DNA from: Asterochloris sp. CNOR1
Taxonomy: Eukaryota > Chlorophyta > Trebouxiophyceae > Trebouxiales > Trebouxiaceae
DNA: 64,000 bases
Reading direction: 5' to 3'
Assembly: GCA_963969365.1 (NCBI GenBank)
Contig: OZ017748.1
Location: 2,911,001-2,975,000 of the forward strand
Position 1 is the first letter of the stretch, and each line of letters begins with the position of its first letter. A program made the position numbers and the translations under genes. The notes below the pieces were generated by a model. The model saw only the letters and a program-made list of their open reading frames with translations, did not search any database and was not told the origin of the DNA. Below, in pieces: positions 1 through 62,100 of this stretch.

Positions 1-3000
1 GCCGAGCGAACTCCATGATGTGATCAGCTTGTGGGTCATACACACCCTGACAGCCCATCCTTAGTGTCAAACAGCAGCTGCATCCTGCATGCCAAAGCGC
101 ATGCAGGAATGCCACAACACAGGGGCAACCCTGGAGCACCCTCTGAGCAGACTGCCCTGCGTTGGGCCAAAAAACCCCCCAAGCTCTGGCGGCCCATTTG
201 AAGGCCCACCTGTTACAAGCGGATCAAGTGATGCAGACCAGTTTCTCAAGCTGCCATGCAATGAGCCCCTCACCTTCACCATGTCAATGGGTCCCTGAGG
301 CTTAGGTGGCAGGCACCGCCCGACCACTGGACACTCGTACTCGCCCCCAGCAGGGGAGCTAAGCACCAATACGTCCCTGAAACCCTCGCCCACAGCAGTG
401 GGTTCAAACACCACCTCCACCTCCACTTCACTGCCCTCTGGACCAGCAGGGGCAGCTGCCACTGCTGGTTTGCACTCAAAGCCGGCCATGCCCTTGTTCC
501 TGAAGCTGCACTTGTAGTCAGCCTTATCGGCCAGCCAGTGCCTGAAGCGGTACACCTGCACAAGGGACAAGAATTTGAGAGTTCAAGTCTCAATCAGTTA
601 TCTAAGCCATGCCCACGTTCCCAGGAGGCCCTTTCCAGGTTGAGCATGTCTGGCTGCCAGAGCCAGCTCCCATGCCAAGTACCTGTTGCAATAGGCACCT
701 CACAGGCGTCACAATGTAGCTCACAAAGCCAATCCACCAGGCAAATCATCAGCTGGCAGCAGCCACCACGCAGGCCCAGCTCAGCACATGGCTACCACTC
801 CTGATCCTGAATCCTGAGCAGTTTTGGGCGCAAGTGCCTGAGCCAGGTGACGCTGCTGCCGGCATCTGCCACCGCCCACCTGCGTCTCAGTATTCCCCAG
901 CGCCACGCTGAAGGCCATGCTGCGCTCTGGTCCAGCAGGGGCCCCCTTCAGCCTCAAAGCATACTGGTACAGGCCAAGCTCCTTGCTGGTCAGCTTGAGC
1001 GTGGCTGCTGACTCCGCCGCCAGGAGGGGCCGGTAGGCCACATCCAGGGACGCAGTGCTGCTGGGCTGCACCACAATGCTGGCAGGCACCACCACCTGCA
1101 CATATAAAGCCCAAACAATGTTGGGATCAGAAAGCCAGCATGAAGTTATGATGTGCAGGCACAGCACAGGTCCTGCCAGATTAGCAGCAATGTCAAGAAC
1201 AGGGCCTCGGTTGGCATGATGCTCAAGAAGGAAGCCACTATGATTGCCCGCCGATGAAATGACACCGATGCCACTTCACATGGCCATGCTGCCCAGCACG
1301 CTGCATAGACTGCGCTGGATGCGATCCCCGCGTGACGATTGCCACAGGCTGAAAATGGACTCTCTGGTTCTGACCTGGAGCGCTTGGCTGCCCCGGCCAT
1401 CGTTCACTCACACAGGCAGAGCATGCAGGGAAGTGCAGCCCCGACAACGCCGCCTTGCTGCCCACCTGGCGGTTGTCACAGGCCACACCCATGGTGACAG
1501 CACTGGGGAGGGGGTTGTCCAGCATGACAGCCAGGCTGGTCTTCACCCGCACAGGGGACTCCAGCACCAGCGTGCCCAGCACCGCCGGCGGCGCCGCGGC
1601 AAAGGTCAGCTTGTAGAAGCTGTACTCCCCGGTGGCCTCATTCCTGAAGGTGACTGTGGCCGCAGTGGTGCCCTCGCTGTAGCAGTAGAAATGCAGGCGG
1701 CAGTCCTTCTGGGACAGGCCTGGCAAGTCGATGTGCTGGGGCCCTGCAGGCATTTAGGCAGGGGCCCTGGCACAGTGGCTCATCAGAGGCAGCATTCGAA
1801 TCTGCAGCTTCCTGGGCAAGCCTGGTCCCTGGGCAGGTCAAAGATTGGGGGCCTGCGGGCCATGCATGCAGGTGCACAGTGGCTCTCATAGGTCAGCATC
1901 ATATCAAACCAGCTTCGTGCAGACGCCTGGCCCTAGGGCAGGTCCTTGTGTACTGGCCAGCAGGGAGTGTGGGCAGTGATCGCTCAGCGGCCCTGGTATT
2001 GGCACAGCCATAGCATCAGAGCAGCTTCTTGGGCAAGTTTGGCCCCGGGACAGGCTACCCTGCTGGAGCCCCGCAGGGACTGTGGACAGGGTCTCATCTA
2101 AAAGCTGACACAATTGTGGCGGCCCCTTTGCTCGCGTCACCGGTCCAGAGTCCAGAGCAGCTGAGAAGCACACTGGTTGCCCCTGGTGGTGCAACTCAGT
2201 GGCACAGGCTCTCAGTGCTGTGGCTTGATTCCTCCAGGCTGCCAAATCAAGCTGGAAGCCCATGCCTTGGCCATGCATTGCTCACAGCTGCCACCAGGCA
2301 GTGTGCCCCACCTGTGAGCCGCGTGGCAGGGTCTGCCTGGCTGAGCTCCACCACCACTTTGAAGCGCTGTGGCTTGTTCAGCCAATTAGAAACCTTGAGG
2401 ACCTCCGTGTGAGCTGCCTTGGCTGTCACCTGCAGTGATGTGAATTTCGAAACACACTGGATGATCATGGGCCCAGAGGCAGTTGAGCCATGCACATGCA
2501 TCACAAACAGCAGCAGGCAGCTCCTCAGGAGGACCTCGCACCAGGACGCTGCATAAGCTTTGCGGGACCCACTTAATGGGCTAGTAAGCGCTGCATGCCA
2601 GCTTTGAAGAAGCAGGCCGACTGCTTCTCTGACAAGCAGTTGCTGATGAGGTTAAGCTCTAATGGGGTTTGCTGCAGTATCATCCAGCTGCTCCACAACC
2701 ATCCGCACTGAGGATGTGGGCACAGCTGGGGGTGCCCCTTGCTGCAGGGTGCTGGCCATGGCGGTCAAATTTCTGAACACAAGCCATCCCCTGGACCCCA
2801 CCTGCCGATGAATGGTGTCAGTGGGCTGTGGGTCATCTGCCACGCCCCGCAGAGAGAACTGCACCGCTGTGCCGTCCGGGATGGGGAAGAAGACGGAGCC
2901 CTCATGGGGCTTGTCAGCAGTGGCCATAGCCAGGGGCCTGTAGGTGATAGGGTACTTGGCGCTGCCGCCAGCAGGCACAGCCAACAGCTCAGGGCCGCTC

Positions 3001-6000
3001 CAGGTGTCATTGTGGACGACTGGAGCCAGCTGCCAGGGGGTGACTGAGGGGTTTGTTAAGGTCAGCTCCTGGGTGGCTGACCCACGGACGCTGGTGCGAA
3101 ACTCTATGGGGGCGCCCTCGGCTCTGGGGGCAGCACAGGCGCCCGTCAGTGTCAGGAACTTGGACACGCTGCCCTCCACCTGGCAGCTCACCTGCAGGGG
3201 CAGGCAGATAAGTATTTTCAGCGACGCTGTCCACCTTTGGGTTGTGGCACTGCGATCCTGCAGCATGCTGCCCTCTGCCTGGCAACGCCCTGCAAGGGCT
3301 TCAGTACACACAGGTGCTTGGCAGCAAGCACAATGCTGGTGTTGAGGTCCTGTGGGCGCCTGTGAGCATCAGAGCATTGATGTCTGATGTCCTGCACTGA
3401 CAACGCACCTGCTGGGCAGGGCAAGTTGACATGAGTGGCACTGGCAGCACATCTGGGCACTGCCGTGCTGCAGTATGCTGCCCTCCACCTGGCATCAGCA
3501 TGCCCTCGACCAGCACTGTGCAAAACAGGTAGTTCCATGTGTGCTCAAATGTCAGCTTCAAGACTTTGTGGGTGAGACCAGCTTCACTGTCTGCCAACTG
3601 CATCTGCCCATCATTTGTAGCAGCAAGGCTGCTCACAACTCTGTCAGACCCAGACTCTCCAGAGCCTGGATTTGTATCAATCCTGGGCCACCACGGCTGT
3701 CTCATCCTCTCACCCTCTCCACGCGAATGTCAGCATCAATGCTCCGCGGGTGGAAGGTGACTTCCAGCTTCACATCCTGCCCCGGTGCCAAGAACCCATC
3801 CCCTGGAACCACACTGAAGTGGGGGGCCAACGCCTTCATGTCAAAGGCAAATTTGGCCCCCACGTCGCCTGTGTTTTCCAGCTGCAGACGCCTGCTGGCC
3901 TGCAGGGCAGAAAGGGAAGCAGACGCTTCAAATTTCAATTCCAGATATTTCTCAAGGCGCCAGAAATGTGAATGATGGATTTGTGTTGATCAAGGAAGCG
4001 CAAGCAGCAAAGATTTCACGAAGAGCTGGGCAATATCTGGCAGGGAATGCACATGGAGATTGCAGGGCATAAGAAGCCAACATGATACCCATGATGCAAG
4101 CGGCAGTTGGTGCAGCGTAAACAGTATGCACAAGACAAGCACAACAAGGCCACTATCTTTTAGGCATGCCAAGGGGCTCTTGGAGCTCAAGGAAGCCAAC
4201 ATCACCTGAGAGCCAAGCACCACAGAGCCAAAGGGGATGTTGTCAGATGCCAGTTTGACCTCTGTACCCAGGCAGGCCCCCGACAGCGTGAGCAGGTGCA
4301 CGCTGACGCCAGCCACCTGCACACTTACATCCTCCCGCCAGGGACGCATGCGCTGGAGTGGCCTGCAGGCGAGTAGAGAGACAAGTCAGGGTGCTGCAGC
4401 CTGCTGCGACAGCCAGGGCCAAGGACCACAGCAGGATCTGTGGGGCAGAGCGCAGATGCTATTGGCGACACCAGATCCAGCTAAGTGGAGATGCACTAAT
4501 CCATGCAGCCCAGTGTGGCGGCCAGGCACGCCACAGGAATGTGGCTGGGCAGGCACAGCCGCCAGCAGCTGCGGTCTTAAGCACTTGTGAGGCATGTGCC
4601 AGCTTGAGCACAGTGCTGGCTGGCGGTGAGTGGCTGTGACTCAGGGAGGCCCCTGCTGGCAGTGGGACAGTGCCAAAGGGCAGAACCGCCACCCTGATCA
4701 CCTGTACATGAACGTGAGGTCAGCTCTATCTCGTCCCCGCAGCAGCTGCTCGGGGGGCAGCACCTCCACACCATACTGCTGCAGCCTCCCAGCTGCCTCC
4801 CACAGAGCCATGCTGTAGGTGACCCTGCTCAAATTCACCACCTGCAGGCAGACTCTTCCTCGGCATCTGGGTTTATGTGAGCCACCGTGACCCTCTGCAG
4901 CTGAGCGTGGTGCCAGATGCACATTGCAGGAGTGCCGACTGGCCAGACAGAGCTCCATCCTGCAAGGTTATGCCCCAATAAGCTTGGAGCCTGGCAAGGA
5001 ACGCATTGCTGCAGCACATGGTGACGCCCAGCCGTGTGCAGCCTCACCTGCACAGTCTTGCTGGCCTGTGAGCCCTTGCTCACAGAGCCCAGGTGCAGGT
5101 TCTGGTGAGCAGGGCTGGCGCAGCTCAGCCGCAGCGGCACGGCCTCGCCCACGATGAGCACATTGACCACGTACAGGCCATTGATGTTGACTGGGACTGT
5201 CTCTGAATAGGTGCGGGCCTGCTGGGGGGTGAAGGTGATGGCCACGTTGCAGGCCTCACCTGGCTGCAGCGCTGAGGTGGGGCTGCTGACCTGAAGGTCC
5301 TCTGTGTCCTCAAACCTGCAGCAGGAATAACGGCGGGGCATGAGGTGGGCCCTTGAGATGATGTGCACCTCACACCTGCAGCCCAGCAGGCAGCAGCAGT
5401 GGGGTTTGAGATAGGCCCTGAAGAATACTTATTGTGTCCTTCAGATTGCATAGGTCTCTATAGGTACTCTAAAATCCCAGAAGTGCATCGGCATTCCACA
5501 GCTCTTCTGTCAACGAGGCATGCCGGCAGCCTGCAGGTGAGTCAAGACAGGGGCCTTTCTTCAGACTTCAAGCTCTGCAGCAGCTGTAAGCTCGCACAGA
5601 CAGGGCTATGTGAGGGCTGAGCTTCAGCTGGCTGCAGAGTTGCAAAGACCAGCAGGTAGCCAGCAGGAAGAAGCCAAGCATGCAGCCTGCCACGCCGGCA
5701 GTGACATAAGCAGAATGTTGGTCGCGCAGGCCTGTGCTGCTGAGGCATGCAGAGCATGCAGGAGCAAACAAGTCTGCCCAAAGCTTGCAGCTGACGCAAT
5801 GACAGGACACATGCGTGCTGCTCTCTGTCAAGCAGGCTCAAAGTCGGCCTCAGACAGACCTTGTTAGCTCCCTAAGGCTGCTTTGATTGCAAGAGCCATG
5901 ACATGACTCACTCGATGCTGAAATTCAGCTCTGCCTTGTCATTGTTGCGCAGGCGGAGCTTGACCTCCTGGGGCTGCATGCCACGCTGGTGCACCAAACA

Positions 6001-9000: not shown

Positions 9001-12000
9001 CTCCAGCACCTTGATGGCAGGATCCAGGGGGCCTAGGTCGCCGCTTGGTCCCCGGCGGTCCGAAGCTCTCCGGCCTGCACTCAGGTGGCCACAGCACGTT
9101 GTCAGACAGGTGCACATGGCCTCCCTTTCACAAAGCTGCCCATGTCATGCAGTCAACCAGCTGACAAGGCAGTGCTGGGCAGCTGCCAGCCTGCTGCACA
9201 TCTGCATGCAGGCTGCCTCTGCAGGGCCGCGGCCCACTGCCGTCCACTGCTGAACAGCTGGGCTGCTGCATGAACTGGCTGCGCAAGTCTGCGGGGCGCA
9301 GCACGCGCAGCAGGCCCCACCTCCTGTGAGGTAATCGCTGACTGGCAGGTCAAAGTAACACCATGGCCGCAGCACGCTGCCACTGATGGCACGGCGGGGC
9401 TGCTGGGCGGTTGCTGCCAGGTTGGCAACCGTGCCCTGAAGGGCCCGCTCACAGTCCACCACCTCCTGTGGACTGAAGCGGACACTGATCTGGGCAGTCT
9501 CTCCTGCAGCCAGGCTGCCACCAGAGGGCTCCACCTGCAGGATGAAGTCAGGGAGCGTGAATGCATGCAAGCAATTGTGATAAGTCGTCTTCGGGTTGCT
9601 TGCTGCTCACAACCTTCTCATGGAAGCAACCAGCAGAATGCTGGGTCCATGACAGCGGCTGGCATTGCACAAGGCAGGCTTGGCCTGCACTGGCGGCATG
9701 CAGCGTGCTTGTGTCTGTGCCTTGCCTGGTACAAGCTGGTGGGGTCAGGCTGACCGTCCGACATCAGCACGGCCCACTTGAAATTCAGGCGGGCCATGCT
9801 GGTGTTCTTGAGCGGGAAGGTGAAGCCCCTGGTCTGGAACATGACAGTAGGGCGGAAGGCAATGGGACTTAGCTCACACTCAATCTTGGCATCATCTGAG
9901 ACAGCTGACACCTGCAGCAGACGGCAGGCAGAGCTAAGAGGTATCTGCAAGAAGGCCTTGCACCCCTCCACCACATCAAGGCCAGTGAGTAAAGCCTGGC
10001 TACTCAAGGCTACATCAGCCTGGCACCTGCACAGCCAGAGCCAGCAGGGTGCAGCAGCATGCAGGCACAAGAGTTCGCGCATACAGCCAGGCCGGCGTGC
10101 ACAAGACGTGATGCTGCTGCAACACACTGTCAACGCACCATCTCTGCTTGTGCACAGCAGGCACATGGCAGAATCCATCCAAGGCCCTCACATGCTGCCT
10201 ACCCTCATGCCGTGCAGAAGCTGTTCAGCAGTGGCGTCCATTGCCAAAGAGCACCCACCTTGAGTTGAGCGGCGCTGCAGCCTCCAAGACAAGCTGCTTC
10301 CAGAACAACAAGCAAACGCAGTAGATGTCCCCTGTACAGGCAGGTGTTGCTGCAGCCAAAGAGCTCAAGATGCGTCACCCAAGGTTGACAATGTCGCCAT
10401 GCGGACCTTTCACCAGCTGTGAGCTCACAAGCTGTGACCAAGTGCTGCAACACCTCAGTCCCCATGCTCTGTGACAAGCATGAACTCATAGCAACGAGGA
10501 CCGAATCTTACATAACTGACCTTGAGCAACCGCTGCAGGACCTCAGCCCCCTTGCCAGTGACAAGCTCCACCTTGGGCTCAGCCTCAGGGCCAGCTGCCC
10601 CTTCCACCCTCCTGTTGTCCCAGTCAGCAACTGCTGCAGCGCCCCCAGGGTACCGAAGCTCAGTCCCCTTCATCACGACAGCCTGAGCCTTCAGCTGTGC
10701 AGGAGCTGAGCTGCGGAATGTGACTGTGATGTCCTTGACAGACCCTGCTGAGATGTGGCCGATGGATGGCGAGATGGTGAGGTTCGGCACTGCTGGCCAC
10801 TCAAACCTGCAGGCAGGGGAAGGCCTGGCCTCTTGGCACACAGAGTGGCCTCAGGTCTGCAGCTTTTCAACTGATTGCAGTGCGGCTGGGCTGATGCTGA
10901 GCTTGTGGAGTTTGAGTGCCAGCCAGCTGTGACAAGGTGCTGCAGGCTGTCGTCAATACCAGCCCTGCATGCTTGTCTGTCCATCGCAGCTAGGCGGGCG
11001 CACCTGTAGTGCTTCTCAGACATGCTCCTGAGCGTGAAGCTCATCTGGGCAGGCACGTTCAGGGGGACATCATCCAGCTTGAGCTCATCAACTGACTCCC
11101 CAGGTAGGCCTTCAAAGGCCAGCACCTCCATGTAGCACTCCCCCGTGACAGGGATCCTCATGTGCTCAAAGGGGTTCTGCTGCACCTCCACCAATAGCTA
11201 CAGGGCAGAAGACCGGCTGGAGGAAGAAGTCCATGTTTGCTGAATCTGTTGCGCAGCCAGCTGGCTCCAGGGGAACATGCTCAGCAGCATGTTTTGTATG
11301 CCAGATAGATGTTAGACAGAGCCAGGCGCGAACATGCCTCATCCTGGCGTCTGGAGCACGGCATGCAGCACGCAGCCTGCATCTCCACACGACTGTCTGG
11401 AATGACAGTAATACTGGCCTCTGATCCTTAACAGACAGCACACATCTGAGCCTGCTGCACGACCTGTGCAACATCTGCTCTGCGTTGCAGGGCACAGGTC
11501 AGCATCAGCTGCTGCCCCCAGGTCCTTCCAACCTTCTCACCTCATGGGTGTGCTGCTTCACCTCGGCAGCAGCAAACTCCAGCACCAGCTGCTGCGCCTG
11601 CTTGCTCTGCAGGCTGACTGTGCGGGAGCCACCCTGCAGCTTGAAGGCTGCATGTGCCTCCATTGAGATGCGGGCAGTGGCCGGCAGAAGCCCATTGTTG
11701 CGCAGCGTGACTACCTCTGTCGCCATCTTGCCCTGCACATAGTGCCAGGCAGCCATCAGCACAAGCGCAGAGGCGCATTCTGCACTGGCATGCTATGAAG
11801 GAGTCCCCCTCAAGGCAGGAGTGTTTGAGGCCGGTTGATACACGTTGTGCAGCCTCCAACGGTCTGGTACCAGCTGTCAACACTGCTGGCTTTGGGTAGC
11901 CTGACTGCTCTTAGGCAGGCGCACCTTGAGCAGCCTGGCAAACTTGATGGCGGGGGCTCCCTTCTCAGCCCCAGGCAGCTCCAAACTGAGTGAGGGCAGG

Positions 12001-15000: not shown

Positions 15001-18000
15001 TCTGCACCTGGACCACCACTTTCTCAGTCAGCTGCTTCTTCTCCCTGGCAGTGAATTCCACCACCACCCGCAGCTCCTCCCTGGCAGCAAGGTCACTGGT
15101 GCCAGGGGTGACCTTGAACTCTGATGGCAGCGTGTCTGAACCTGGAGGGCACATGGACCCCTGCTTCACTGTACAAAGACACAGTTCCATGCTTTGAACA
15201 TCTCATGACTATGCTATTCAACTCAGCTGCGCTGTGAGGTGGTCCATAGTGTGATTGTATTGGGTGCAACAATGTTGCTTGCAAAGCTGCAAGGCCTCCA
15301 GCCAGGGGCTGGCCAGGCCCAGCAGGCAATGCCTATGCCCTGGGTCTGTAGAAGAAGATGGCGGTGGTGTGCATGTATTTGCAGTGTTTCTTTGCTGTTC
15401 AACTTCCAATGCAATGTACTTGCCAGGCTCTGGCAGCAAGGACGTACAGCCCTCAACAAGTTGAGTGGGCAGCATGCTCACCAGCCAGCTTCAGCTTGCA
15501 TGGCAGCAGGCTGGTGTTGCGGATGATGAAGGCCTTGGTTGTGGTCTTCCCCACCAGCAGCCTGTCAAACACAATGCCCTCCTGCAGGATCTGCAGGCAC
15601 AGAGACTTCCCTTCAGCGAGACATCCTCAGCAACACCAGCACTTGGTGTGGAGACAACAAGTGGTGACCCGCAATCACACAATCAAATGGCATGCAGCTG
15701 TATGGACCTACCCTGGCCTCGCTGTGCAGCCCCAACTCTGCAGACATTGTTTTGAGACTTGCCACTGTGGCAAACGCAAACGGCTGACCTTGCTGCGCGG
15801 TGTCAGGGGCCTCGCAGGTGCAACCTCCTCCTTTTTGCCCTTGGCGCCAGGCTTGCTGGCAGCGGCAGCAGGCGGCGTTTGCGGCTTGACAGTTGCAGGA
15901 GCGGCGCCCGGTGGAGGCGCGGCAGACTTCGAGCCAGGCCCACTAGCTGGTACAGGGGTGGGCAAGCGCTCGTTGCCTGCACAGGAGGGCAACCCTTGGG
16001 ACTGCTTTGCTTGGGCAACCTGGCAGCCCTCCCTCTCCTGACAGGCAGGACCCACTCCGCTATGTGTCAACATAGTACACACTGCTGGCAGGCCCGGACT
16101 CACACAAGGTGCTGTAGCCAGGTTGCCTCCCGCAAGCTCATGTTCAGTGCATGCAGGCAGGTCACAAGCAGCACGCATGTACAACGGCCCGCAGTCAACC
16201 AATCAGTTGCTGTCCAGAGCGCCTTCACTCACAGGCTTTACCTTCTGGTGGCGCAGGCATGTCCAACCGGACCTCCACCTGCGGCCTGGCCCCCACACAG
16301 CTGACCGGGAACTCTACAGGCACAGGACTGTTGCTGATCCTGCAAACCACGGTGTCCTGTGCTGGCCCCACTGCCTTGGGGAATGCCCACAGCGTCAGCT
16401 CCTGCGTCTCTCCAATCCTCAGGTCGAGCCCCTGCAGCCAGGACAACAGCGTCGAGCAGGGCAGCACCGGCACTAGTCATGGGAGATGCGCCCACAGCGT
16501 CAGCTAATGCATGTCCCAAACATTTTGGTCTGGCTTCCGCAGCAATCACAAGAAGGACAGCAACAGCACTATATGTGCAGGAAGCACCCGCGAAGTCTGT
16601 TCCTGGTCTGGCCAGACTTGGGATGCAGCGCCTGCAGTGCACCTGTGCCCTCACATGCATGTGCTCCGCCGCAGGCTTGCGCTGCCTGTCACAGCCAGTA
16701 CTGACATGCAATCAGGTGCAGCCCCTGCAGTGCCCAGACACCTCAGCCTCAGCTCTGCGCTGCTGTCCTGCTGCTTGTCTGATGACTTCTGAGCTCCAAG
16801 GTCAATGCTAGGCCTCTGGGTCATGCTTCAAGATCACAGCCAGAGGCACCCAGACGCAGGGCAATGCCAGCTTTGCTGCACGGCAGCAACATACAGATGG
16901 GCCGGGCACCACGAGCAGCTGTTTGTGGCAGTCCGTCCTGCTAGTGGGCAGAGAGCAGTCATGTTTAGCTTGCCTTGGGCTCAAACATGAAGCACGATCC
17001 GGCTGCAGAGGTATCCTTGGGCTTGGCTGCAGGTTTGCCCTTGCTCGCATCTGCAGGCGCCTCCTCAGGCCCACTCTTCAGGCAAAAGTCAATGTGCAGG
17101 TCAAAGAGTCCGTTGTTCATCAGCTTGAACTTGGTGGCATTGCCAGCCTGCTGGCCCTCCCTGCAAGCATGCCACATTAGCATCTGCAGTGGTGAAGTTG
17201 CAGCTTAGCAGCATGTCAACTAGCATGGAGTGACATGCATGCCCGTCGTCACTGACAGGGAGAGACTGCGAGGCTTCTTCCCACTGGACATGTCCACACA
17301 GGCTTTCTCACATGGACTCACTTGTAGCCTGCAGGGTCCAGACCAGCCAGCAGCGGCCCAAACTCAAAGAGCCCTGTGCTGGTGATGAACTGCTTGGCCA
17401 CCTTGGCTGAGGCGGGTCTGTTCTTGGAGCGCTTGGCAAACACCTTCTGGGGCTCGGTGGCAATCCTGGGGTAGTCACAGGTGCCAATGACGTTAACTGT
17501 GGCCTTGCCCTCAACCCCAGCAACCTGCAGCACTGTCTCCCAAGTCTGAGAAGTCTCTGCACGAGGACCCTTACGCAGCAGCGATCTCATGTAGACGTGG
17601 TGATAGAACGTGTCTCACACTGGGGGAGCACACAGGTGGGCAACGTGCAGCATGCACCTTGGGCTGGCTTGACCTTGCCACCTTTTGTGCTATTGGGCTG
17701 AGGACATGCGCTGTCACCCTGCCATCAGCTGCATGGCGCTACAGGCCTTGCACGCATGGCAGGCCATACAGACCATCAGCTGGACGAGGGCCAGCCGCAG
17801 CCCATAACATAATCTCACCTCAAAGGCCAGCAGCTCCTTGAATGTCCCAATGTCATCTGAGCTGAACTGCACGATCAGTGGCACTGAGCTCCTGGGAGGG
17901 ATGACCCACCGCGTCTGCTCAGCCTTCTTGCAGGACTGCAACGCTGCCAGTGCCTCTGCGCCGCTGCCTGCCACCTGGCCCTGCCAGGCAATGCACTGCA

Positions 18001-21000
18001 GGGCTTCAGGGTTAACCTAACTGGTCAATGGCTACGGCTCCAGGACAACTAGCCGGCAGTGCAAGCAGCTGCTGGTGCGCATGGGTCCACTGCCCAATGG
18101 CGCCGCATCTGCACAGCACGCTGAGACTGACAAGACCGCAGGTGTGCCTGCAGGAACCCTCAATGATCCCAGTCGTGCCCTACACAAGCCTGACCGAGCT
18201 GCAGATTGTTGGGCCAGGCTCACTGCGTCGACAGGGGTGACCAGCTTGAAAACTTTTATGGCCTTGCGCTCTGCCCGCTGCTTAGGACGCTTTACAATCT
18301 GCAACAGGTAGGGGTCTGCCACCAGGCCGGCGTCTGCAGGCGTCTGCGGCATGCGGGTGCTCAGCACGCCCTGCTCGAAGGTGATGCCGCACACCTGCAG
18401 CCAAAAACCCTGCTGGTCAGCTCACAGGTCGGCTGCTGGCCCCTTCCTCTGGGCTGCAGGTGTATGCGGCATGCAGGTGATGAGCACGCCCTGATGCAGC
18501 ACACCTGCCCACATGGTCAGCCATGACGACTCCTTCCGCCAGCTCACTTGCATACTGTCAGGCCTCACCGCACTTGCAGGTCAGATCACAACCAAGCTGC
18601 TGTATTGTGGACGCCAACAAGACAGCTGTGGGCCCAGCTTGGGTGTGCCGCCTGTGCAGACGGGTCAGCATGTTGCCACTGTGGCAGTGTGCAGATCGCA
18701 GCTCAAGCACTGCTCAGTGCCCATGCCAAGACGAGCCACCTGCCTGGGCAGGCAGGTGTTTGAACCACCCCAGTCGCAGAATGCACAACAGGTGAGTGCA
18801 TTCCAGCTCACATCTCGTAGGGTCTGCTCTGTGCCCTTGGCAGCAGCGTCCACCTCCACAAGCAGCACTGCAGCCTCCGGCACAATCTTGCCCATCACCA
18901 CATCCATCAGCTGCTGCAGCTGCTCTGGCCACTGCTGCGCAGATGCAGCCACCTCCTGCAAGGCTGCCTCTGCAACAGGCGGCACCGGTGCCTCGATGGG
19001 CGCCTGGTCTGCTGCTGGGTCATCGAGCGCCCCTGCTGCAGCCTCAGTGCCAGACGGCGGGGCAGCAGCATCAGCTGGTGCTGATCCTGCTGGCCCTGGC
19101 GGGCCCTCTGCCGCTGGGGGGCTGTCCGGCTTGGGCTCTGCTGCTGCTTGTGGCTTGGCCCTGGGCTTGCCACCAGGCTTGGCAGCTGCCCCTGTGGCTG
19201 ATATGGGCTTGCCGTTTGCTTTGCTGGCACGCAAGCTGACAGGGCTGGGTGGGCGCAGGGGCTTGCCAGGGGGCGGGACTGGATCCTGCGTTGCTGCCTG
19301 GAGCTCCCTGCAGGCATGCAAGCACCAGCAAATGACGACAGAGCTCAAACGCATGTTGCAAGATGGTTTGGAGAGCTCCTGCTGCACCAACCACAACACC
19401 TACAGACAGCCTGTCAGCTGGTCTTGAAACGCCTGGGCCCTGCCCCACCCACTGTTGGCGGTGCCTACGTAAGGCAGGAGGCTGGCTGGGTGTACACGCT
19501 TCCCACTGCTGGCTGTGCCCTCCACATAATCCCAAGGCCGAGGCCTCGATGCCTCCAATGCCTTGCTGAGCGCACAGCAGGCAGAGCAGCAGTGGCACGG
19601 CGGAGCGAGGTTTCTGCCCGCCTGAATTGTGCCCATGGTGCCTTTGCAGACACCCTGGGTGCAGGGCCCACCCCTGCACCCCCCTGGTAGAACACCTAGT
19701 TGCTCATGTTGGGCAGGCATAGCAGCCAAACACCTTTGCCCACCTGTACCGAGTTTCAGCCGCCTCAGGGGCCATGCTGAGCGCAACAAGCCACAGCTTC
19801 CGCTCCCCCTCCCAATGAAACGCTGTCAGATCCACAGGCGGTGCCGGTGGAGGTGGCTCTGCCTTCTTGCCCTTGGGCGGCGGTGGTGGTGCTGGCGCAG
19901 GGATGGCCTCCGGGTGCACTGCAGCCAGGATCCGTGAACTGGCGTACTCGCAGCAGCCCACTTTTGGATTGCTCAGCGATGGTCTGCTGTGAGACAGTCT
20001 CAGATCTGGTGCATGCTGCCCTTGGGGTGCCCTTGATGTGATGGCCCAACAGCTTGGCGCAACAAGGCGCAGCATGGCAAATGCTCTCAGACTGCAGGTG
20101 CTCACGCTTCAGGTGATGCCCCCCGCCTCGCAGTTGGCACAGCAGCGACTACGTCTGCAAAGCTGCAGCCCAGGCTCTTGAGGACTATCTGAAGCCCTTC
20201 AGCTGCGGCCAACAGCAAGCTGATCAACTGCCATGCAGCATTGAGAGTGCTAGAAGACGGTCACTCACGCTTCTTCTCCAAGCCAAATCCAGACATGAGG
20301 CCGGCACCAGCGGTGGCCGTGTCTGCATAGCTGCAACCCAGGCCATCAATGACAACCCCGTTGCGGAACCTCTCTGACTGCAACGCGCTCTTCAGCGCCC
20401 GGGTCAAGAGAGCCTCCAGCTCCGCTGGCTACAGCAAAAAGCAGGAGTGCACACTGAGGCAACTGTTATGAGGGCACGGCTGCACAAGGGAGCACCTTGT
20501 CTGCAAACCGGCATGAAAGCAACAGCACAGGAGTGGAGCTCAGCTCCTCAGCTGTATGCTGCGGAGCGTGGCAAAGACACTGCACCCTGCTGCAGCAACT
20601 GGAATCTCAGGTAGCTTTGTAGGTGAATAGGGTGTGGGCGGCCACAGTGATGCCAAGTGCCTGGCCCGCACATTCTCTGAGCCCACCTGCAGCTTAGTGT
20701 GAGGAGCCGTATAGCCTGGTTCCCGCTGCTCCTCTGGCTGGCCCAGCAGCTTGTCATATAGCTCGTCGCTGAGGCTGGCGTCCCCTCCCTCTGTTAGGTC
20801 AAGTGTGGCAGCTGCCTGCATGGCAAAATTCCTTCAGTACCAAAGTAAAACAAGACAGTTAAGCCTTCATGCGAGGGCAAGCCTCAGACCCGGGCAGCAG
20901 CACTGCTTCCCAGCATGTCAAGGCAGCAGCAGCCAATTCAGCAGATCCTCCGCCAGTCGTTCAGGCCATGGGATTAGGAGCAAGACATTTGCAGGAACAA

Positions 21001-24000: not shown

Positions 24001-27000
24001 AGGACCTACAAGCAAGCGGAGCAGGTCTCAGCTAGCTATTGCTGCCCCTCACTTCCTGAGGCAGACCTGTGTGTTGACCACGACTCACCCGCTGCCAACC
24101 ACAGCTCACCCACCCCAGCAGCAGCTCGCTCAGCAGCAGGCAGTCTAGGATTGGTGGAGGCTGTGCACAGCTCCTTCAGGCGGCTGCAGCAAAACATGCG
24201 CTCCAGCAGCTGCTGTCTGCTTGCAATTGGAGCAGCACATATCAAAAGCAGCTTTGATTGGAGCAGGTCTTACCCGCTCTAACAGCTGCTGGGTCAGCAG
24301 CATGCGGTCAGCCTCTGCCTCCAGGCGCACTTTGGGGTTCATGTCGGTATGCGTGGCGTGCGCGGCACCACCGTGTTCAGAGCGAGCGGCATGCCTCTCC
24401 TTGCTGGGGGAGGGACTCCTGCATAGGGCAAATGCAGGCTGGGCTTGGCCATCGTCGCAGCGCATGCTGCTAGCTGCTGGAGGGCATGCATGCCTCTTGG
24501 AGAGTGTGCAGCAACGGCAGATACAATGCTGCCACAACCTCAGGATTGCAATTGGCTGTTTAGAACGCGTTGGCTCATACCTTTCCCCCCATACTGAAAA
24601 TATCGCTGGCAGCACTTGGTTCATGATGTTGCACCTGACTTTCCGCAGTCAGTTGCACTGTGTGCATGCGGCTCGTGGATCTGTTGCTGTGCAGCAGCAC
24701 CGCTTTGCATAGCTGTCCCTGCAGCACCGCACCTGAGAGCAGCTGTGGTGCGCTCATGCTGCTCCTGGGCCAGCCGCAGCGCAGCTGCAAAGCCTGCATC
24801 CTCCACACGTGGCAGGGTCAGCACCACAGCAGGGAAGACCCCCTCGCCCCTGATGGCAATCAGCACTGGCTCAAAATGGGCTATCTGCACCTTGAGCACC
24901 TCCGAGACCCTCTCGGGCACGCCCAGCACAATCTGCAGCCAGACAGCAGCATGTTGGGCAGGCTGCTTGTCATGTGGACAATCCTGAGGCAGAGTGCGCA
25001 CCCAAGCAGCCTTAAGCACAAGCTTAGCTGTCGATTCGGGCATGTGTGTCTACTCTGAGCTGCATTGAATGCTATGAACGCTGAAGCACAGTGCCCCTGC
25101 ACGCCTTGAGGCTGACTCTCACATGCTGCTCTGTCGCAGCGAAGACCCCTCTCACTACACGGCCAAGAAAGGCAACAAGGGGAGTGCAGCATAGAGTCTG
25201 ACCTTCAGCTTGACAGTTACATGCTGCCCAGCTGCAGCCAGCCCCTTCTCAGGGTAGCACTCCACAATGCCTGGCCTCGACAACTCCTCCCTCAGCAGGC
25301 GGAACTCAAAAGGCACCTTGCCATTGTTTTGAAGCACCAGCTCTCTTTCTGAGGCCCTGTCAAAAACCGCTGGCCCCACATCGATCTGCTGAGGCTCCAC
25401 CGCAAATCTGCAGAGCAGAAGACGTCTTCAACATGAAGAACTTGCCTCTATGCTTGCATCCACGCACAGCAGTTGCAGCCAGACATGCCTCATGCACAGC
25501 ATGTTACACTCAAACAGACAGCAGATTGCAGCAGCCAAGCTGCCTGGCTGAGCAGGAAGATCAGCCACACACTGGCAGACACCACGAATGCAGCCGACAC
25601 ATTCAGCAGCCAGAACTGCAAGCGTGCTGTGCATGACAGGCAGGGCGAGGCCTCTCGGGGCCATGCCAGCAGCAGCTGCAGTTGGCGCTTGACTATGCAG
25701 ACCACCATATGCTGGTGACCTGGCTACAGCTGCTGCCACAAGCTGAACCCCTTCGGCGTATGATGGGTCAGAGCATCCTCACACTTCCCTGGCATGGAAC
25801 TCAGCAGGCAGGGGCAAGCTTCACCTGCAACAGGTGCACTGCACGGCAGCTCATATGCATGACAGCCGTCCAGCTCACTTCATGGCATTGGACTCGGCAG
25901 ACAGGGGCAGGCGGTAGCTGGGCCCGCCCTCCACCTGGCACACTGCCAGGGCTGCAGCACGCTGGCCAGGGAGCGCATAGTATGCGCACTCTATGCACTG
26001 ACTCTGTCCAGCACCCAGCGTGCCCTTTGTCGGCAGAATGTCAAAGGCTTCTGCGCCTGCAAGCGGCTTCAGCCGGGCGACCGAGCGCGATGAGTCTGGC
26101 CGGTCTGCAGCAGGCAGAGGAGGGGCTGTCAGGTTACCAGGCAGGTCAGTAAACATGACCTCTGCGGTTTTGTTTGCAAGCACTGCAGACTCTGCAGCCT
26201 TCAGGGAAGGACCAGCGGCTTAAACCGCCTGCTCCACTGAGCTTGGCCACTGCCCTGGTGGCAGAAGGTGCAGTGACCAGCGCAGTCAGCAGAGACGCAC
26301 TGCAGATGGCCAGCCTCACCTAGCTCTGGGCCGCCCTCACCCTCCACAAATACCCATTGAAACACCGCTGCCACCTTGCTGGTGTTGGTTGCTGTGACGG
26401 GTACTCTGGCGGTGCTGTCATTCAGCACGCTGCCAAAGTCAACCTGCCCAAGATCAAACTTGAGGTTGGGGAAGATGACCTCCCCAGTGAGGTCAAGGTC
26501 AAGCTGGGAGCTGTCAGCATATAGGACATTGAGCTTGCGCTTGATCACAGCTGAGACCAGGTCAGTCCTGCAGCAGATGTGTGGATACAGCTTGCAATTG
26601 ATCAGAGCAGGAACCAGCTCAGTGCTGCTGCAGACCTGCAGACTATGTAGCAGCCATGCTGCATGCTTGCACTCTCTGCGCACCCAGACCTGCAGGGGCT
26701 TGCGACTGCAATGCAAACCAGGCTATTCTCAACTTGCAAGGTAAGGCCAGTTGTGGGCTGGCACGTATCAGTGCTAGGCTAAATGCTTGGCCACTGTCAT
26801 CCAGGAGGGTACGCAAACAGAGAGGATGCGTTGCCATCAATGTTCAGGCAAAAATGCAATGACTTCATGATTGCATGTCCTGCCCAATGATGTCCAACCT
26901 GATCAGGACTGCTGCTGAGCACCAGGCAAGACGGGTGGACTCAAGACTTGCATGGCCTCCAGTTCTGAATGCAAAGCCCACTCACTTCCAGGCAGGATCA

Positions 27001-38025: not shown

Positions 38026-46114
<8,089 letters not shown>

Positions 46115-47920: not shown

Positions 47921-47994
47921 GGTGGCTGGTCTCAGGCCCCGCCTCCCATCAACACTGTTTCGCATGCCAGCAGCCCTTACCTGGCACCCACTGC
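47921..47994. promoter_or_regulatory. Putative promoter of the LEA gene, possibly bidirectional
   Basis: These 74 bp separate the LEA ATG (plus) from the candidate secreted ORF (minus). They contain a GC-box-like CCCCGCCTCCC near 47938. If the minus ORF is real this is an unusually compact divergent promoter. If not, the LEA promoter probably extends further left. Confidence 0.25.
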
Positions 47995-49646: not shown

Positions 49647-50288
49647 TCAGAGATGCATGCGTCTGATGGCGGCAATTGCCTCACGGGAGGCCTCCCGTTG
49701 CGCCTTTGCTGCCCATTTGGCCTCCTGCTGGGCATACAGCTCATTTCGGTAAGGGCTGGTGTAGCTAGCCTCGAGCTCTGCAGCAGCCTGCAGAACGGAA
49801 AGCACGCTATGAGTCAGGCTGCAAAGAGGGTTGCAGGAAGTCCAACCATGCAGTGCGCAGATATATATGGATGTGATGGTGGCTCTCACCTGAAGGAGAT
49901 GCTCTGCCACGCGGCCAATTGACACCTCCCTGGGGTACGTCTGCACCTCTGCAAGGGCTGCCGTCAAGGCCGGCATCAGCTGCTGCAGAAGTGCTCGCTT
50001 GGGTGCAGCTGCTAGGAGCTCCACCTGGGGCGAGGGCAGGACGCTTGCTGGGGGCTGCAGCTGCTCAGTCAGGGCAGCTGAGGACTGGTGCTCCTGCACA
50101 GCCTCTGCCTCAAGTGCTGAAGCAGGCCGTGACTGGGTTGGGGAGCTGCTTGCATCTGCAGGGGGTGCCTGCTGCTCCCGGGGGGCAGCAGTGCTGTAGT
50201 TGTGAGGCGGCCCAACCTGCTGCTCGACCTGCTCAGCCAGAGCCTCAATGCCTCCAGCACTGCTTACGCCGGCTGCCAGCACCATCAC
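49647..50288 (-). other. AK7: AK7 C-terminal Ser/Pro-rich region and Dpy-30-like helix
   Basis: Exons 16 and 17. Exon 16 has a Gln/Pro/Ser-rich stretch, then PKRALLQQLMPALTAALAEV followed by SIGRVAEHLLQ. This matches the position and hydrophobic spacing of the Dpy-30 motif that ends vertebrate AK7 and docks onto RIIa-type helices of axonemal complexes. The algal protein then adds about 46 residues, including YRNELYAQQEAKWAAKAQRE, a charged helix. The Dpy-30 assignment rests on position and pattern and is moderate. Confidence 0.6.
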
Positions 50289-53200: not shown

Positions 53201-56200
53201 GCTGGCAGGCCTGTCATGCAGCAGATCTTGCCTGCTGGGTGCTGGTGCACGCATGCCACAGCGTTGGACTTCTTGAGTGCCAGGCAGGCATACACCCATT
53301 CACCTTGGTGCAGCCCCTCCGGCTGAAGTCCATGGCAGCAAAGCCAGATTCTGCAGGTGGTGTACAACATGCCTGCCCTGCTGCAGGGGTGCAGGTGGTG
53401 TACAACATGCCTGCCCTGCTGCAAGGCTGGACACCTGTTTGCAGCGCACCCCATCTCGGAACACCCCCGTGTGCTGCAAGTGCTGAAGTGCTGCTCTTCT
53501 GCAGATAGACGGGTCATCTGCCTGCTGCCACACATGCAACGTCGTACAGCGGAGCACATCACATGCATGCGCCGCAGGCGTGCCCTCCAGTGCCTTGACC
53601 TTGTGTGGCAGGCTACGCACACTTGGCTGCTGTTGCTGGGGACTCTGCAGGTAGTGCTCAACATGCCCGGCCTGCTGCAGCGCTGAAGCCACTTTATCAG
53701 AGGGCACTGCAGGCGTGGCGCAAACTGTCTCGATGGGGAGTCTGGTCACCTTTGAGTCTGGCTTGGCAGGCTTGGCTCCCTTAGCTGCTGCTGCTGGCGG
53801 TGCCTGCGCGGCCTGAGCATCCTTGTAGCCCTGTATCCTCTTCAACTCTGCGTCCCTGCAACAGATGCCTCAAAGCATTAGGAGCACACCGACCACAGAA
53901 AGCATGCAGAAGTGCTCGTGCACCCATAAACACAAGGTGACCACAAAGGCATGCTACTTCAGGTACTGGCAGTGGGCCATCATTGCAGTGGAAGGCTGGT
54001 GGAATGCTGAGCAACATCTGATTCAGATCTGGCCCCCTGCAGAAGCCTGCTCATGCTGGTACAGTGTAAGAGGAAGACTGCAGACTAGCACCACTGAGAC
54101 TGCCAAAACCTCATGTGTAACCGCTGCACACCACTACGACCACACACAGGCACCAGCTTGCGTGCTGGGGCACGCTGAGCCAGTGCCCAGGGAGCTGGAG
54201 ATATTGCCTCGCTGCTCAGCGCAAATGTGCGGGCAGGCAGTAAGCGCGTACACACAATACGAGCTGTGCATGGCAGGCAGTTGCTGCAGAGGTCTGAAGA
54301 CTGTCCTCAGGAGACCTTTCTGACTGGTGCTGGCAGCCAATTTGCAGCACTTGTCAGCTCACGAGAAGGGGTCGTCAACAGTGAACAGCTCCTCAGCAGC
54401 AGTCTCGCTCTTGGGCCAGCCGTCCAGGATGTAGCCTTGCCGCGCAAGGGGCTGCTGCGCCAGCACCAAAGCGCACAGGCGGGCCATCCGCTCCTCCGAC
54501 ACGCGCCCACCCTTGGCTCCCAGCTCTGCCTGCACCTCCTGCAAAGGCGGGATGATCCTTGAAAGGTGGCCTCACCCCCATCTGACCGCTGTTTTGGCCC
54601 TCACAATGTATCATGCTATCCTCTGACAACCCCACAGCCCTGCCTGAAATTCCTGCACAGCAAGGAGGAGGACCCTCAGAATGCATCCATTCTCACGTCT
54701 AACCTGCGCCCATCCTTGGCTCCCAATTTACTTCTCACCTCCTGCACAGACAAGACCAACCAGCTGAGTACTGGACAGCTGGTGTGGATGCTGTCCTCTG
54801 GACCACAGCCAATTCCAAGGGAGGACACTGCAGGGCTCTCAGCCAAGCCTGCCCGTCAGGCAGCTGTCCAGGCTTATTGCCTATGTGCCGCATAAGACAG
54901 GGCACACTGCCCACCCAGGGTGGGCAGAGTGTGGGGCAACCTGCTGTGCTCAGTCCAGCATGCACTCATCCAAGCAGGCACCATCAAGAGCCTGGTGCAG
55001 CCAGGCACAACGGCAGACTTGCCTGTGCCAGCTGCGGCGGCGCAGAGTCCACTGCGGCCAGGATGGTCTTGGCAGACACAACCTGAAGGCCATAAAACGC
55101 ACCCAGCCTGCAGCAGTGGGAGTGGCTTCTTGGCTGAGTCCTTGGTGCACAGTGACGGATCACGAGGTCAGCTGGAAGTAGAGATGCAGCACAGAGACCA
55201 TGCTTCTCCTGATCTCCAAATCAGCATGCATTTTGAGTACAGTGGGCTTGGACTGTGTCAAAGCGTGCCCTGACTGCATGTCTCAATTAAACTGTGACAG
55301 GCCTGTCCAGCACTGACCTGGCTGCCAGCGCGCTCTTGCCTGAGCCAGGGGGCCCACTGATTACCAGCCTGCAAGCCAAACCAACTGTGAGGGTTTGACA
55401 ATTAATCGTCATGTACTAGCACACCCTGACTATGTGACGCCCAGACACTGACTGCAGCAGGGCGTGGCCTGCCCCAAGATGCGTTCCCACGGAGCAGCTC
55501 TCAGGCATGCGGACCTGTTCACATGTCAAAACGCTCTTGCAAAGCCCATGGTGTCATCCTAGCGTGAGGTGCTGCATTCAGGACATAGGCTCTAGGGAGC
55601 TGAGCACACCATGGTGCTGCAAGATTGCTCCCTTGAGGGGCTGCAGGCACCTGCGCAGCGCAAAGTCAGAGGCTGCAGTTGCCTGTATGCTGCTCGCCTC
55701 AGGGCTGCAGGTGCCAGTGATGCTGCTCACCTCAGGGGCTGCAGGCGCCTGTGCCGCACAAACTGAGGCACCACCTCCTGCTGCAGACGGGCAACAAAGC
55801 CTCCAGACTGCTCTGCAGGCGCTACAAAGCCGGCAACCTGGCTTGGCTGCATTTTGAGATCCAGAAGCAGCTGCTCAGCCCCCTGCAGGCAGTGAGGGGA
55901 TCGCTGTGGGCTGCAGCCACCTGGCAGACTGGACACATCCAGTGCCAGCACCTGACAGTCTGTGCACTGACAGTGAATGCACTATGTCACCAATGATGCA
56001 TGCCAAGCAGCCAGGTTCAATGGACACAATACCTTGAGTGAGCCTCTGGCCTCCTGAGAGATGCTGCAGCTGTCTTGCCCTCTTTGCGTGGCAACAGGCC
56101 AGCAGCCCAGATGTGGCCCCTGGCAAGGTGAGTGAGAGCCAGGTCTGCAGAATGGCAGTCTGACCCACCTTGCGCAAGCAGCACTCCTCAGCAGGCATAC

Positions 56201-57593: not shown

Positions 57594-58055
57594 GAACGAA
57601 CATGCAACCTACCTGTAAACCCCTAAAACCCTACTGAAGGGCACATGCCTCAAATGAAGCACATCACAAAGTTTGATGAAGATAGGGCATGATATATGCA
57701 TCGCCACATCAGTCCATTTGACAGACCGGGCCCCCAAGAAAAGCTGCAGCAGCATTAGATGCTGAGGACCTTCTGTGCTGCAACCCCTAAGCTACCTGTT
57801 TGGACCAATCACTAGTGATGTGGAAGGGAAGACCACTATATCAGAGGCTCTCGAGTTATCTTAGCATGCAAATGTTGCTATGTATGCCAATTCTTGCAAA
57901 ATCAGCAATGAAATACGAGCTGCCAGTACAAGCAACAGCATCAGGTAAGGAGACATTGGTGCCTGCATCTGATACTGGTGAGCGTGAAGCCTGCCAAGTG
58001 GCAGACATGAGCTCCTTGTTGCTGTTGCTCGAGTGATCGTTCCAACTGCTAAGAC
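57594..58055. other. AK7 promoter and LYRM4 3' flank
   Basis: The 462 bp between the AK7 start and the LYRM4 stop are more AT-rich than the surroundings and contain no convincing frame. Both genes are on minus, so this stretch must hold the LYRM4 terminator and the AK7 promoter. No specific motif is claimed. Confidence 0.5.
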
Positions 58056-58791: not shown

Positions 58792-59149
58792 CAACTGGCA
58801 GTGGCACTGTGCAATGCAATGTGTGTTATGATGCACAGGATCCAGCAACAGACTGTGGCACACGGTTCTTGCCCTAACATGGCTCGCCCTATCTGGTACC
58901 GGTCAGGCAATCCTTCTCTCCTCTTCCCCAGCTCAATCTGGCATCCACAAAGTTCCCGTCAAATTCTTGCCTGCTGCATGGCAGAAGCTCTGGAGTTCAA
59001 CGCACTGGATCCTCTGGCGGCATCAAAGGCACTGCTGTGCCCAAGCGCCACATTGTGAAGCCACACCACGCTGGCAGGGGCAGGCAGGGCGCCCACTGCA
59101 ACCCCATCAGATCTGCTGCGGCTTCATCTGGGCAAAGACCCAGGCCGCC
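58792..59149. promoter_or_regulatory. Divergent promoter region between LYRM4 and MRS2
   Basis: The 358 bp between the start codons of LYRM4 (minus) and the magnesium transporter (plus) must hold both 5' UTRs and both promoters. Sequence inspection shows no TATA box in a fixed position and no repeat. Open frames that cross it on plus (58648-59058, 58967-59386) show no family similarity. Confidence 0.5.
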
Positions 59150-62100
59150 ATGCCGCTTGTCAGGCAGGGCTCCAATAGCAGCACGCACAGCAGCCTGTAC
59201 CCTGCCAATGGGGCAAGCCTTGCCGTGTCAAATGGTGTGTCAGGTGAGCCTTCCCTGTGTGATATGCATGCTGATGTGACATGCAGTGATGCTGAACCCA
59301 TGCACAACCTGCGTGATCCGCCGCGATCATACTTGCAGCCTCCCAGGCATTGTCTTGTAACCTGCAGCGTACTTGAGCACAGTTGACATGTTGGAAGTGA
59401 TCGATCTCACCTTGCAGGGGTGGGCCTGGACGCCCTGCCCCTCAAAGCCTCAGACCGCAAGAAGTTCAGCCAGGTTGTCATGCGGCGCTGGGTGCGAGTG
59501 GACAGGGCAGGGCAGGGCAGCATCATGCAGGTGGGCTGTGTGCCACATGGTATCCTGTGCCCTAACTAAGGCATGGTGGTTGATCAGTCAGGCGCCTAGA
59601 TGCCAAGCTGCTGCTGTTAAGGCCAGGGCTGTGCATGCTACCCAGCCAGCCGACATGAAGATGTTGAATGGTGAAACAGCAGTAGACAGGTGCAGCTTGC
59701 AGGCTGGGCACTTGTGTGCTGCAGCAGACGAAGAGCAGGATGAGAACAACGATGTGACGTGGGTTTGACGCAGGGCACCCGCCGCTCATGCAACGCAGCG
59801 CGTGGTGTCGCCCTGACAGCTGGGCTGGGCGTCCAGCTGTCATTGCCTCAGCATGCTACCCCTCGCCATTCGGCATGCGAATCAATTGCTGCAGGCTGAC
59901 AAGTCGGTCCTGATGCATGGGGGTGCGCAACCACCAAAAGCTGCACTGGGGAGGCCTCTCGACTTGCATCTGGCGCCAGCCCTGCTGTGACCTCTGGTGC
60001 AGGCAGACAAGTCGGCCTTGACGCATGAGCTCGGCATCCAGCTGCGCGACCTGCGCCTGCTGGACCCCCAGCTGGCCCACAGCTACCCCTCAGCCATCCT
60101 GTGCCGAGAGAAGGCCCTGGTTGTCAACCTGGAGCACATTAAGTGCATCATCACCATCGACCAGGTGGGCTTCACCACCTGGGACACAGTGACACAACGG
60201 TTGTGAAAGGGCCTCGAGGAGCTTGTTGACCGCGGCTGTCTGGTCAGCCATGCAGCCTGCCCCATTCAGCTGCCGCTCACCATTTGACCAGGGGGCAGGG
60301 CATTGTCTCTGCCGTGGCACAGACGCCTGGCACAGACTGAGGCCAGCCCCTGCTTGGGTCAAGCACTCAGCAGGGCGTCCGTGTGGACCCTTGCAGAAGG
60401 GGTGGCCGCCCAGCCCCTAGCAGCGTGCTGCCGCACCGCGCACGTGCCCTGCGTCACCTGCGGGCAGGGTTGCTGACGCGCAGGACATGTTCAGAGCTCC
60501 TGCGCATGTTGTGGGGCCTCACCAGCAGGCGTGCACAAGACCCTTCAAGCTATGTACCAATACCCACATGCCTTTCACAGCAGCTGGTGCTGACTGCATG
60601 CAACAGATGCAGTGACGTGCTCCGACAAGGATTGTGACTCTGCACCAGGCCCTCTGCAGGGGCTGATGCCGAGTCCAGTTGCCCTCATAGCACTGATCGG
60701 AAGACATCCTTAGCATCCCACACCCTGTGCAGGTGTTGGTGCTGAACCCAGACGATGATGCAGTGATGGCCTTCATAGAGGACCTGCAGCGGCGGCTGCA
60801 GCCAGCCAAAGCAGAGGGCCCACGTGGCCTTGGGGCCAGCCAGTCCGTGCCTGATCTGACAGGGCGGTCTGGCCATGACAGCGACAAGGCCGGGGACAAC
60901 GGGGTTGCCTTGGCAGCTGCACATGTGAGGCAGCAGGCCCTGACGGCGGCCCTGCAGGCGGGAGAGACCCCCTTTGAGCTGCGGGCTCTGGAGGTGGTCC
61001 TGGACACGGTGAGCTTGCTTGCAAGCCTTTCATGATGTGAGGCAGGCTCAGCAAGTCACTCTTGTGGGCTGGCCAAATCCTGTGGCAAAGCTGCCTGCGC
61101 TGAGCAGGCATTTGAGGTAGCGATGGACACAGTGCAATGATGTGCTGCAGTGAGCAGGCAGCTCGTGTCCCGCTGAAAAAGGCATTGCAGCAATGCTGAA
61201 CATGCCAAGCACAGGTTGATGCTGAGCATACGCAGTCTGGGTAGGCCTGGCAGATGCATGTGTTGCTGGAAAGCCCACCAAGTTCATATTGAAGCTATGC
61301 TCGCATGCTGCATGCTGCGGCCTGCTGGAGCCTAAAGCTGCCTGGAGTCCTGCATTTTGCAGCAACTGGCTTATCGTGGACATGTTGAGGTGCTCTGTAA
61401 CGGTCTGCGCCTCGCTGCAGGTTTGCTCCCACCTCGAGCGCATGACAGCTGATCTGGAGGCTGGCGCTCATCCTGCACTGGATGCCCTGACCACGCAGGC
61501 GAGCCGTTGCAGTCGCCAGCACTGCATGGCATGCTTGGAGGCTGTCCTGCTTGCTGCTCTGCAGTGCTTGGCTCATGCACAGCTCAAGAGGAGCTGGGTT
61601 GTGCCTGCCTCCAGGTGACCACACACAACCTGGAGCGTGTCAGGCGCATCAAGAACAGGTGAGGCACAGCCCTGACGCCACGCCAGTGAAGAGCAGGTGG
61701 TCTGCCAGCTTGTCGAGCCTCTATGGCCGTCAGCTGGCACTGCCAGCGTGCAGGAGTCACCTCACCTTGCACTGGCAGACAGCATTGCTGAAGACCGTTG
61801 CAGAGCCATGCATTCTTGAGGGGTCTGCCCCATGGGTGGCCTGACAGGGTACCAACCCTAAGGGCTCACTGGATGTCAAGCTGCTTCTTCTCTGAACATC
61901 CCTGACCAATCCTGGCAGCAGCCTTTAGCAGTACAGCACTCCCGAGGCCACTCCTTCTAATGCTGTATGGTGCAGCTTAGCACCATCCCTGATGCTGTTG
62001 ACTCCCTCTGGTGACAGCAGGATGCGGCAGTACAATGCTCCTTGAGGCTCATTCGCTGTTTCAATCTGCCATGTCCCCTACACTCCCCTGACCTACCCCC

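Follow-up and report, generated by a model that had tools for sequence, protein, structure and literature searches.

Decayed copies of exon edges in Asterochloris introns: a probable record of small tandem duplications

Background

According to PMC8355091, small tandem duplications are the most frequent type of short (<100 bp) insertion in the human genome, are tied to break repair in humans and plants and form, in mouse and human cells, when Pol alpha-primase/CST fills in certain staggered breaks. Here we report on related sequences in the green alga Asterochloris sp. CNOR1, where the exon letters at a splice junction recur as diverged copies, termed echoes below, inside the adjoining intron. 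They were found in a 64-kb stretch of contig OZ017748.1 (C3), referred to as the window, of a genome assembly of 56.4 Mb in 21 contigs, and they recur in stretches of seven other contigs, eight contigs in all. Like the break-repair duplications, the echoes are direct and small; unlike these, they are read as old, decayed intronic copies, with lags (distances between copy and source) reaching about 300 bp and more.

A second group of described events concerns the origin of introns. New introns are known to have arisen in Drosophila (PMC2891723) and in potato (PMC4974935) when exonic or exon-edge sequence was duplicated in tandem, and the duplication in potato spans an intron-exon boundary, like the echoes. 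The involvement of exon edges in tandem duplication is common to these cases, to the AGGT model of Rogers (1989) and to the echoes. The outcome differs: the described events create a new intron or intron position, whereas the echoes lengthen an existing intron, in which the exon-side splice site is apparently still used. Tandem exon duplication with alternative splicing is a further source of local copies of exon sequence; unlike its products, the echoes lack coding constraint and are mostly partial exons.

Results and discussion

Genes were predicted with a self-trained hidden Markov model gene finder, the training set being the window and 20 other 10-kb stretches of the genome (L009–L028). 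In the edge test, exon letters alone, with the splice letters excluded, were scored locally against the adjoining intron; introns of at least 80 bp were kept (489 of the 530 in the window and the 20 stretches) and exons shorter than 30 nt were dropped. Five later stretches, from five other contigs, were fetched afterwards and lie outside the training of the gene finder. At a score of at least 16, edges match their own intron in 19 of 238 cases for the window, 19 of 660 for the 20 stretches and 17 of 145 for the five later stretches. The reverse-complement control at the same score gave 0/898 for the window and the 20 stretches and 0/145 for the later ones (0/1,043 in total), and the control with other introns gave 0/4,490 and 0/1,450 (0/5,940 in total). 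Given empty controls and hits in all three sets, the echoes are real and are not limited to the window. Their density is higher in the window than in the 20 stretches (p = 0.002), and the window is no richer than the five later stretches (p = 0.28).

The original prediction had claimed about 15 such copies, at both kinds of exon edge and in four genes of the window (HYDIN, a GCK kinase, AK7 and MRS2), and the edge test bears this out. The 19 window edges that reach score 16 fall in HYDIN (14), GCK (2), AK7 (1) and MRS2 (2); lowering the threshold to 14 gives 23 edges, 10 donor and 13 acceptor, with HYDIN contributing 17, GCK 3, AK7 1 and MRS2 2, so that each gene carries at least one echo (Table 1). 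The predicted distance of 60–185 bp was somewhat narrow, since the measured values extend from 57 to 309 bp with 11 of 19 within 77–120, and the proposed period near 100–120 bp dissolves into a broad mode, the lags having no sharp period.

Ungapped direct self-matches with a score of at least 15 are likewise concentrated at short distances. There are 59 in the window at lags of 25–399, compared with 2 at 1000–1374 and 0 at 3000–3374; the corresponding numbers are 181, 10 and 2 for the 20 stretches, and 78 compared with 2 (1000–1374) for the five later ones. A 36.5-kb piece of E. coli gave a direct-match count of 4 against 0 in its control.

We consider it probable, at roughly 0.8, that the echoes stem from frequent small direct tandem duplications that are filtered by selection and lengthen existing introns. 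Units of about 40–300 bp, most often 60–140, would arise throughout genes. Where a unit spans one splice site, splicing would continue at the copy adjoining the exon body, and the second exon edge would stay silent in the intron, adding to its length and decaying neutrally into an echo. Units that are entirely intronic would be tolerated too, while entirely exonic ones would survive mainly when they are a multiple of three; exon edges would then be a readable record of duplication rather than a proven target. The most likely source would be fill-in repair of staggered breaks or of nearby opposite nicks, rather than replication slippage. Small tandem duplications from adjacent single-strand breaks in plants were reportedly described by Schiml et al. 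in 2016.

As small tandem duplication requires, the near copies are direct and far above controls. Inverted near copies occur at chance level: the window has 3 (control 2), and ten of the 20 stretches together have 4 (control 8) beside 114 direct ones. Inverted or snap-back copying as a general cause is ruled out by this lack of excess. The copies decay evenly: in exon-intron pairs with a score of at least 17, mismatches by codon position amount to 155/761, 147/764 and 166/757 (0.204, 0.192 and 0.219), a flat rate from which it follows that the intron copy is unconstrained. Coding alternative exons are thereby ruled out as a general cause.

The missing inverted excess also bears on the alternative that the echoes are local templated insertions, made by an error-prone polymerase through copy-and-patch synthesis, and not tandem duplications, since such synthesis usually yields inverted copies as well. 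What speaks for templated insertion is that many pairs are separated and that the aligned length does not depend on the lag. The lags of the 160 non-redundant pairs (39 of them in the window) range over 40–399 and peak broadly at 60–140, and members abutting within 15 bp make up 35 of the 78 pairs at lags below 120 and 0 of the 82 at lags of 120 or more. The flanks, on the other hand, are similar in tandem register, which argues against insertion: among 119 testable pairs separated by at least 25 bp, 42% reach a rank p ≤ 0.05, compared with an expected 5–10%. We take the pairs to be tandem duplications that afterwards underwent decay and indels, more tentatively so at the longer lags, and we regard templated insertion as unlikely.

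Several observations nevertheless weigh against a purely tandem origin. Flank support is lowest at lags below 100 (17% of 24 pairs), and the controls of the flank test lie 700–3,000 bp off, so that other local duplications could mimic its signal. The aligned part measures about 50 bp whatever the lag, and 0 of 40 pairs at lags of 200–399 cover 80% of the lag; together with the 0/82 abutting pairs, this means that some copies may not be tandem-born. Finally, the similarity between donor echoes and the intron side of the used site at positions +7..+16 is 0.41, below the 0.56–0.62 obtained in simulation. The splice dinucleotide itself is kept in 6 of 25 donor echoes (simulated 0.65–0.68) and in 14 of 30 acceptor echoes (0.64–0.66). 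Selective loss of the decoy donor GT was considered and dropped; because the entire intron side of the donor echoes falls short of the simulation in a similar manner, the loss is no evidence that selection removes decoy sites.

A different question is where duplications fall. The original prediction had suggested a process acting at exon boundaries, and duplication could indeed be targeted there by transcription, R-loop or nucleosome-edge breaks, or by slippage between the CAG|G of donor and acceptor. We expressed the share of edges as the ratio of exon-or-edge/intron pairs to intron/intron pairs (non-redundant, score of at least 16, lag 40–299) and compared it with a simulation, run in six settings, in which tandem duplications are placed uniformly in the first 21 sequences, exon copies evolve slowly, and wholly exonic units and units crossing more than one boundary are dropped; the later stretches were judged against this simulation of the first 21 sequences. 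The ratios exclude 3 pairs from the window (all exon-exon), 23 from the 20 stretches (8 exon-exon, 7 edge-edge, 5 exon/edge-intergenic and 3 intergenic) and 7 from the later stretches (3 exon-exon, 3 edge-edge and 1 exon-edge). Random placement yields ratios of 0.91–1.16. Above this uniform expectation, to the credit of targeting and to the detriment of uniform duplication, are the window (24:11, p = 0.04), which had been chosen for the feature, and the five later stretches (32:20, p = 0.16). The 20 stretches (52:56, p = 0.44) and the pooled counts (108:87, p = 0.22), in contrast, agree with random placement, and a process acting at exon boundaries is not established.

A rotation control points the same two ways. 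In the 20 stretches 46 copies contain a junction where 23.3 are expected, and in the window 16 where 8.3 are expected, about twice as many, as targeting would have it. The excess in the 20 stretches, however, is balanced by a shortage of copies in exon interiors (19 v 35.5), which is what tandem geometry predicts, and intron-only copies there are likewise in excess (77 v 55.3); the window has no such shortage (15 v 15.5). Of 19 exon-exon lags (overlapping pairs kept) 16 are in frame, as are 3 of 3 in the later stretches, from which we conclude that duplication hits exons too and that selection filters the result. Two things make exon edges conspicuous: their exon copy is conserved and can still be read, and duplications lying wholly within exons persist mainly when they keep the frame. 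Exon edges are probably no special target of duplication, and targeting has a poor chance of being the explanation; uniform duplication combined with selection and readability would suffice, and a mild edge bias is compatible with the counts.

Tandem duplication of AGGT-containing exonic segments could also give birth to introns, as in the Rogers model, in which case the lag equals the intron length and the donor aligns to the acceptor. This signature was found, at a score of at least 10, in 1 of 526 introns (0 of 10,502 control pairs); in its one clear case the lag and the intron length are both 116. A slight excess at a score of at least 7 (5/526 v 20/10,502) also lends the model some support, whereas the echoes lie within introns longer than their lag. 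With so rare a signature, intron birth is ruled out as the general cause and is highly improbable as an explanation of the echoes, which, as originally predicted, mostly lengthen existing introns. The single case, L014:84-213, comprises a 116-bp intron (98-213) whose ends align over the splice sites, CCTGCAG|gtgggc.. / cctgcag|GTGGGC.., as for tandem birth from an AGGT segment. Introns with a detected copy have a median length of 417 bp, v 246 bp for those without, in the window (31 of 132 introns hold one) and 319 v 205 bp in the 20 stretches (72 of 398), longer introns also offering more room for detecting copies. In the window, detected copies cover 7.2% of intron bases and 5.1% of exon bases; in the 20 stretches they cover 7.6% and 3.5%, respectively.

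That spliced RNA was copied back into introns has hardly any probability left, even though the exon side of the echoes is better kept than the intron side. Beyond the junction, what the echoes match is the intron side of the splice site in use, with mean local scores of 9.9 v 5.9 in controls (donor) and 9.5 v 6.2 (acceptor), and 4 of 25 donor and 5 of 30 acceptor echoes reach a score of 12, controls none. The match to the far exon that spliced RNA predicts is absent (5.7 v 5.7 and 5.5 v 5.8; 0/25 and 0/30 at score 12). The combination indicates copying from boundary-spanning DNA and rules out spliced RNA as a general cause. Chance or common splice-motif composition, which the strong CTGCAG|G and CAG|GTGAG motifs of the gene model might suggest, is negligible and ruled out as a general cause, since true neighbours match where controls do not (0/6,983 at score 16, splice letters excluded) and shuffling the window in 400-bp blocks leaves 1 and 3 direct matches v 59.

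Three further loci show multiple copies. L019:6285-6679 is a tandem array with a unit of 78–79 bp, 94–97% identical, that covers an acceptor and a short predicted exon; its youth suggests that the duplication process is recent or ongoing. In L025:8214-8573 the exon start TGCAG|GCTGGCAG.. is present in three copies, at lags of 228 and 93, perhaps small duplicated exons. L017:1633-2033 contains the exon-start motif GCCTGGAGGAGGAG in three near-identical copies (about 1633, 1719 and 2013) at irregular spacing, with at least one further diverged copy.

Gene models and feature coordinates

The G+C content across the window is 56–61% in 4-kb steps. The splice models were seeded with ordinary donors and CTGCAG acceptors, and the trained model has the donor CAG|GTGAG, the acceptor CTGCAG|G, 541 introns with a median of 232 bp and exons with a median of 132 bp. 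The predicted acceptor is very uniform in the window and L009–L028, which makes CAG|G common to acceptor and donor; because of the seeding, the sharp acceptor motif reflects the starting guess in part.

Residues 1-942 of the HYDIN product match the solved Hydin chain 7sqc, a structure from Chlamydomonas, with 991 bits; the kinase domain scores 306 bits against serine/threonine-protein kinase 24. The MRS2-like gene has a family match of 117 bits; for AK7 the match of a 431-residue part to the adenylate kinase family is marginal (27.5 bits, cut-off 26.8), and its gene model has one in-frame stop, probably a gene-finder error. Protein alignments are gap-free across the junctions of all four echo exons visible in them. 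No relatives of a 347-residue HYDIN piece were found in viral contigs.

Table 1. Coordinates of the echoes in the window (edge test, score of at least 16), of the four genes and of exons with gap-free junctions
Feature	Position	Strand	Source	Lag (bp)	Score	Remarks
HYDIN exon-letter echo	3477..3494	minus	3168-3185	309	18.0	18/18 identical
HYDIN exon 3' edge echo	10435..10479	minus	10523-10566	88	22.4	
Echo near HYDIN exon 5' edge	16490..16520	minus	16385-16415	105	17.8	
Echo near HYDIN exon 5' edge	18455..18493	minus	18335-18373	120	28.0	
HYDIN exon 3' edge echo	24110..24145	minus	24274-24309	164	16.2	
HYDIN exon 3' edge echo	25105..25154	minus	25203-25251	about 98	16.4	
HYDIN exon 3' edge echo	25790..25819	minus	25883-25912	93	19.0	
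HYDIN exon 5' edge echo	26589..26623	minus	26532-26566	57	19.6	
Echo near HYDIN exon 5' edge	28791..28831	minus	28557-28597	234	21.2	
HYDIN exon 5' edge echo, upstream intron	29698..29737	minus	29573-29612	125	29.0	88% over 48 bp
Echo near HYDIN exon 5' edge	30512..30537	minus	30363-30388	149	17.2	
HYDIN exon 5' edge echo	31142..31199	minus	31065-31122	77	20.6	acceptor CTGCAG in both copies
HYDIN exon 5' edge echo	32410..32447	minus	32312-32352	about 96	16.6	
HYDIN exon 3' edge echo	35268..35318	minus	35377-35427	109	29.0	match extends beyond donor; 79 bp ungapped, 75%; protein gap-free against solved HYDIN
GCK exon 3' edge echo	40402..40448	minus	40520-40566 (exon letters)	118	33.8	intron 40137-40519; ungapped pair 40380-40448 / 40498-40566, 81%; kinase protein gap-free over junction
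GCK exon 3' edge echo	42512..42561	minus	42793-42842	281	21.4	
AK7 exon 3' edge echo	55636..55669	minus	55734-55767	98	20.8	
MRS2 exon 5' edge echo	59895..59919	plus	60003-60027	108	16.2	
MRS2 exon 5' edge echo	62555..62598	plus	62713-62756	158	24.2	
HYDIN gene	67-37696	minus				gene model; 74 exons, 4,596 codons including stop, no internal stop
GCK kinase gene	39407-46114	minus				gene model; label GCK from the original prediction
AK7, adenylate-kinase gene	49647-57593	minus				gene model; label AK7 from the original prediction
MRS2-like gene	59150-63774	plus				gene model
Gap-free junction exon, HYDIN	35377-35588					
Gap-free junction exon, HYDIN	30905-31122					
Gap-free junction exon, HYDIN	29475-29612					near end of alignment shown
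Gap-free junction exon, kinase	40520-40650					

Implications

To our knowledge, intron growth without mobile elements is poorly recorded. Among the literature matches listed, which comprise titles and the starts of abstracts and mostly leave subscription journals outside their coverage, no paper describes dense decayed exon-edge copies in introns, and this is weak evidence of novelty. What may be new is how densely decayed edge copies occur inside existing introns, together with a mutation process that can be read from one genome. Should the mild edge bias suggested by the window and the later stretches be real, a transcription- or splicing-linked source of breaks would be added to the process.

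A more far-reaching possibility, which we hold to be speculative and on balance doubtful, is that introns in this lineage are largely palimpsests of recurrent tandem duplication of roughly 100 bp. Events spanning a splice site would then act as a one-way ratchet, in which the surplus exon edge invariably ends up in the intron and length grows with each event. Because the exon copy stays conserved, each edge echo is accompanied by a near-ancestral sequence. One genome would thus be enough to measure the size spectrum, the decay and the indel pattern of small tandem duplication, and very many natural sites would be available for testing how a duplicated splice site affects splicing.

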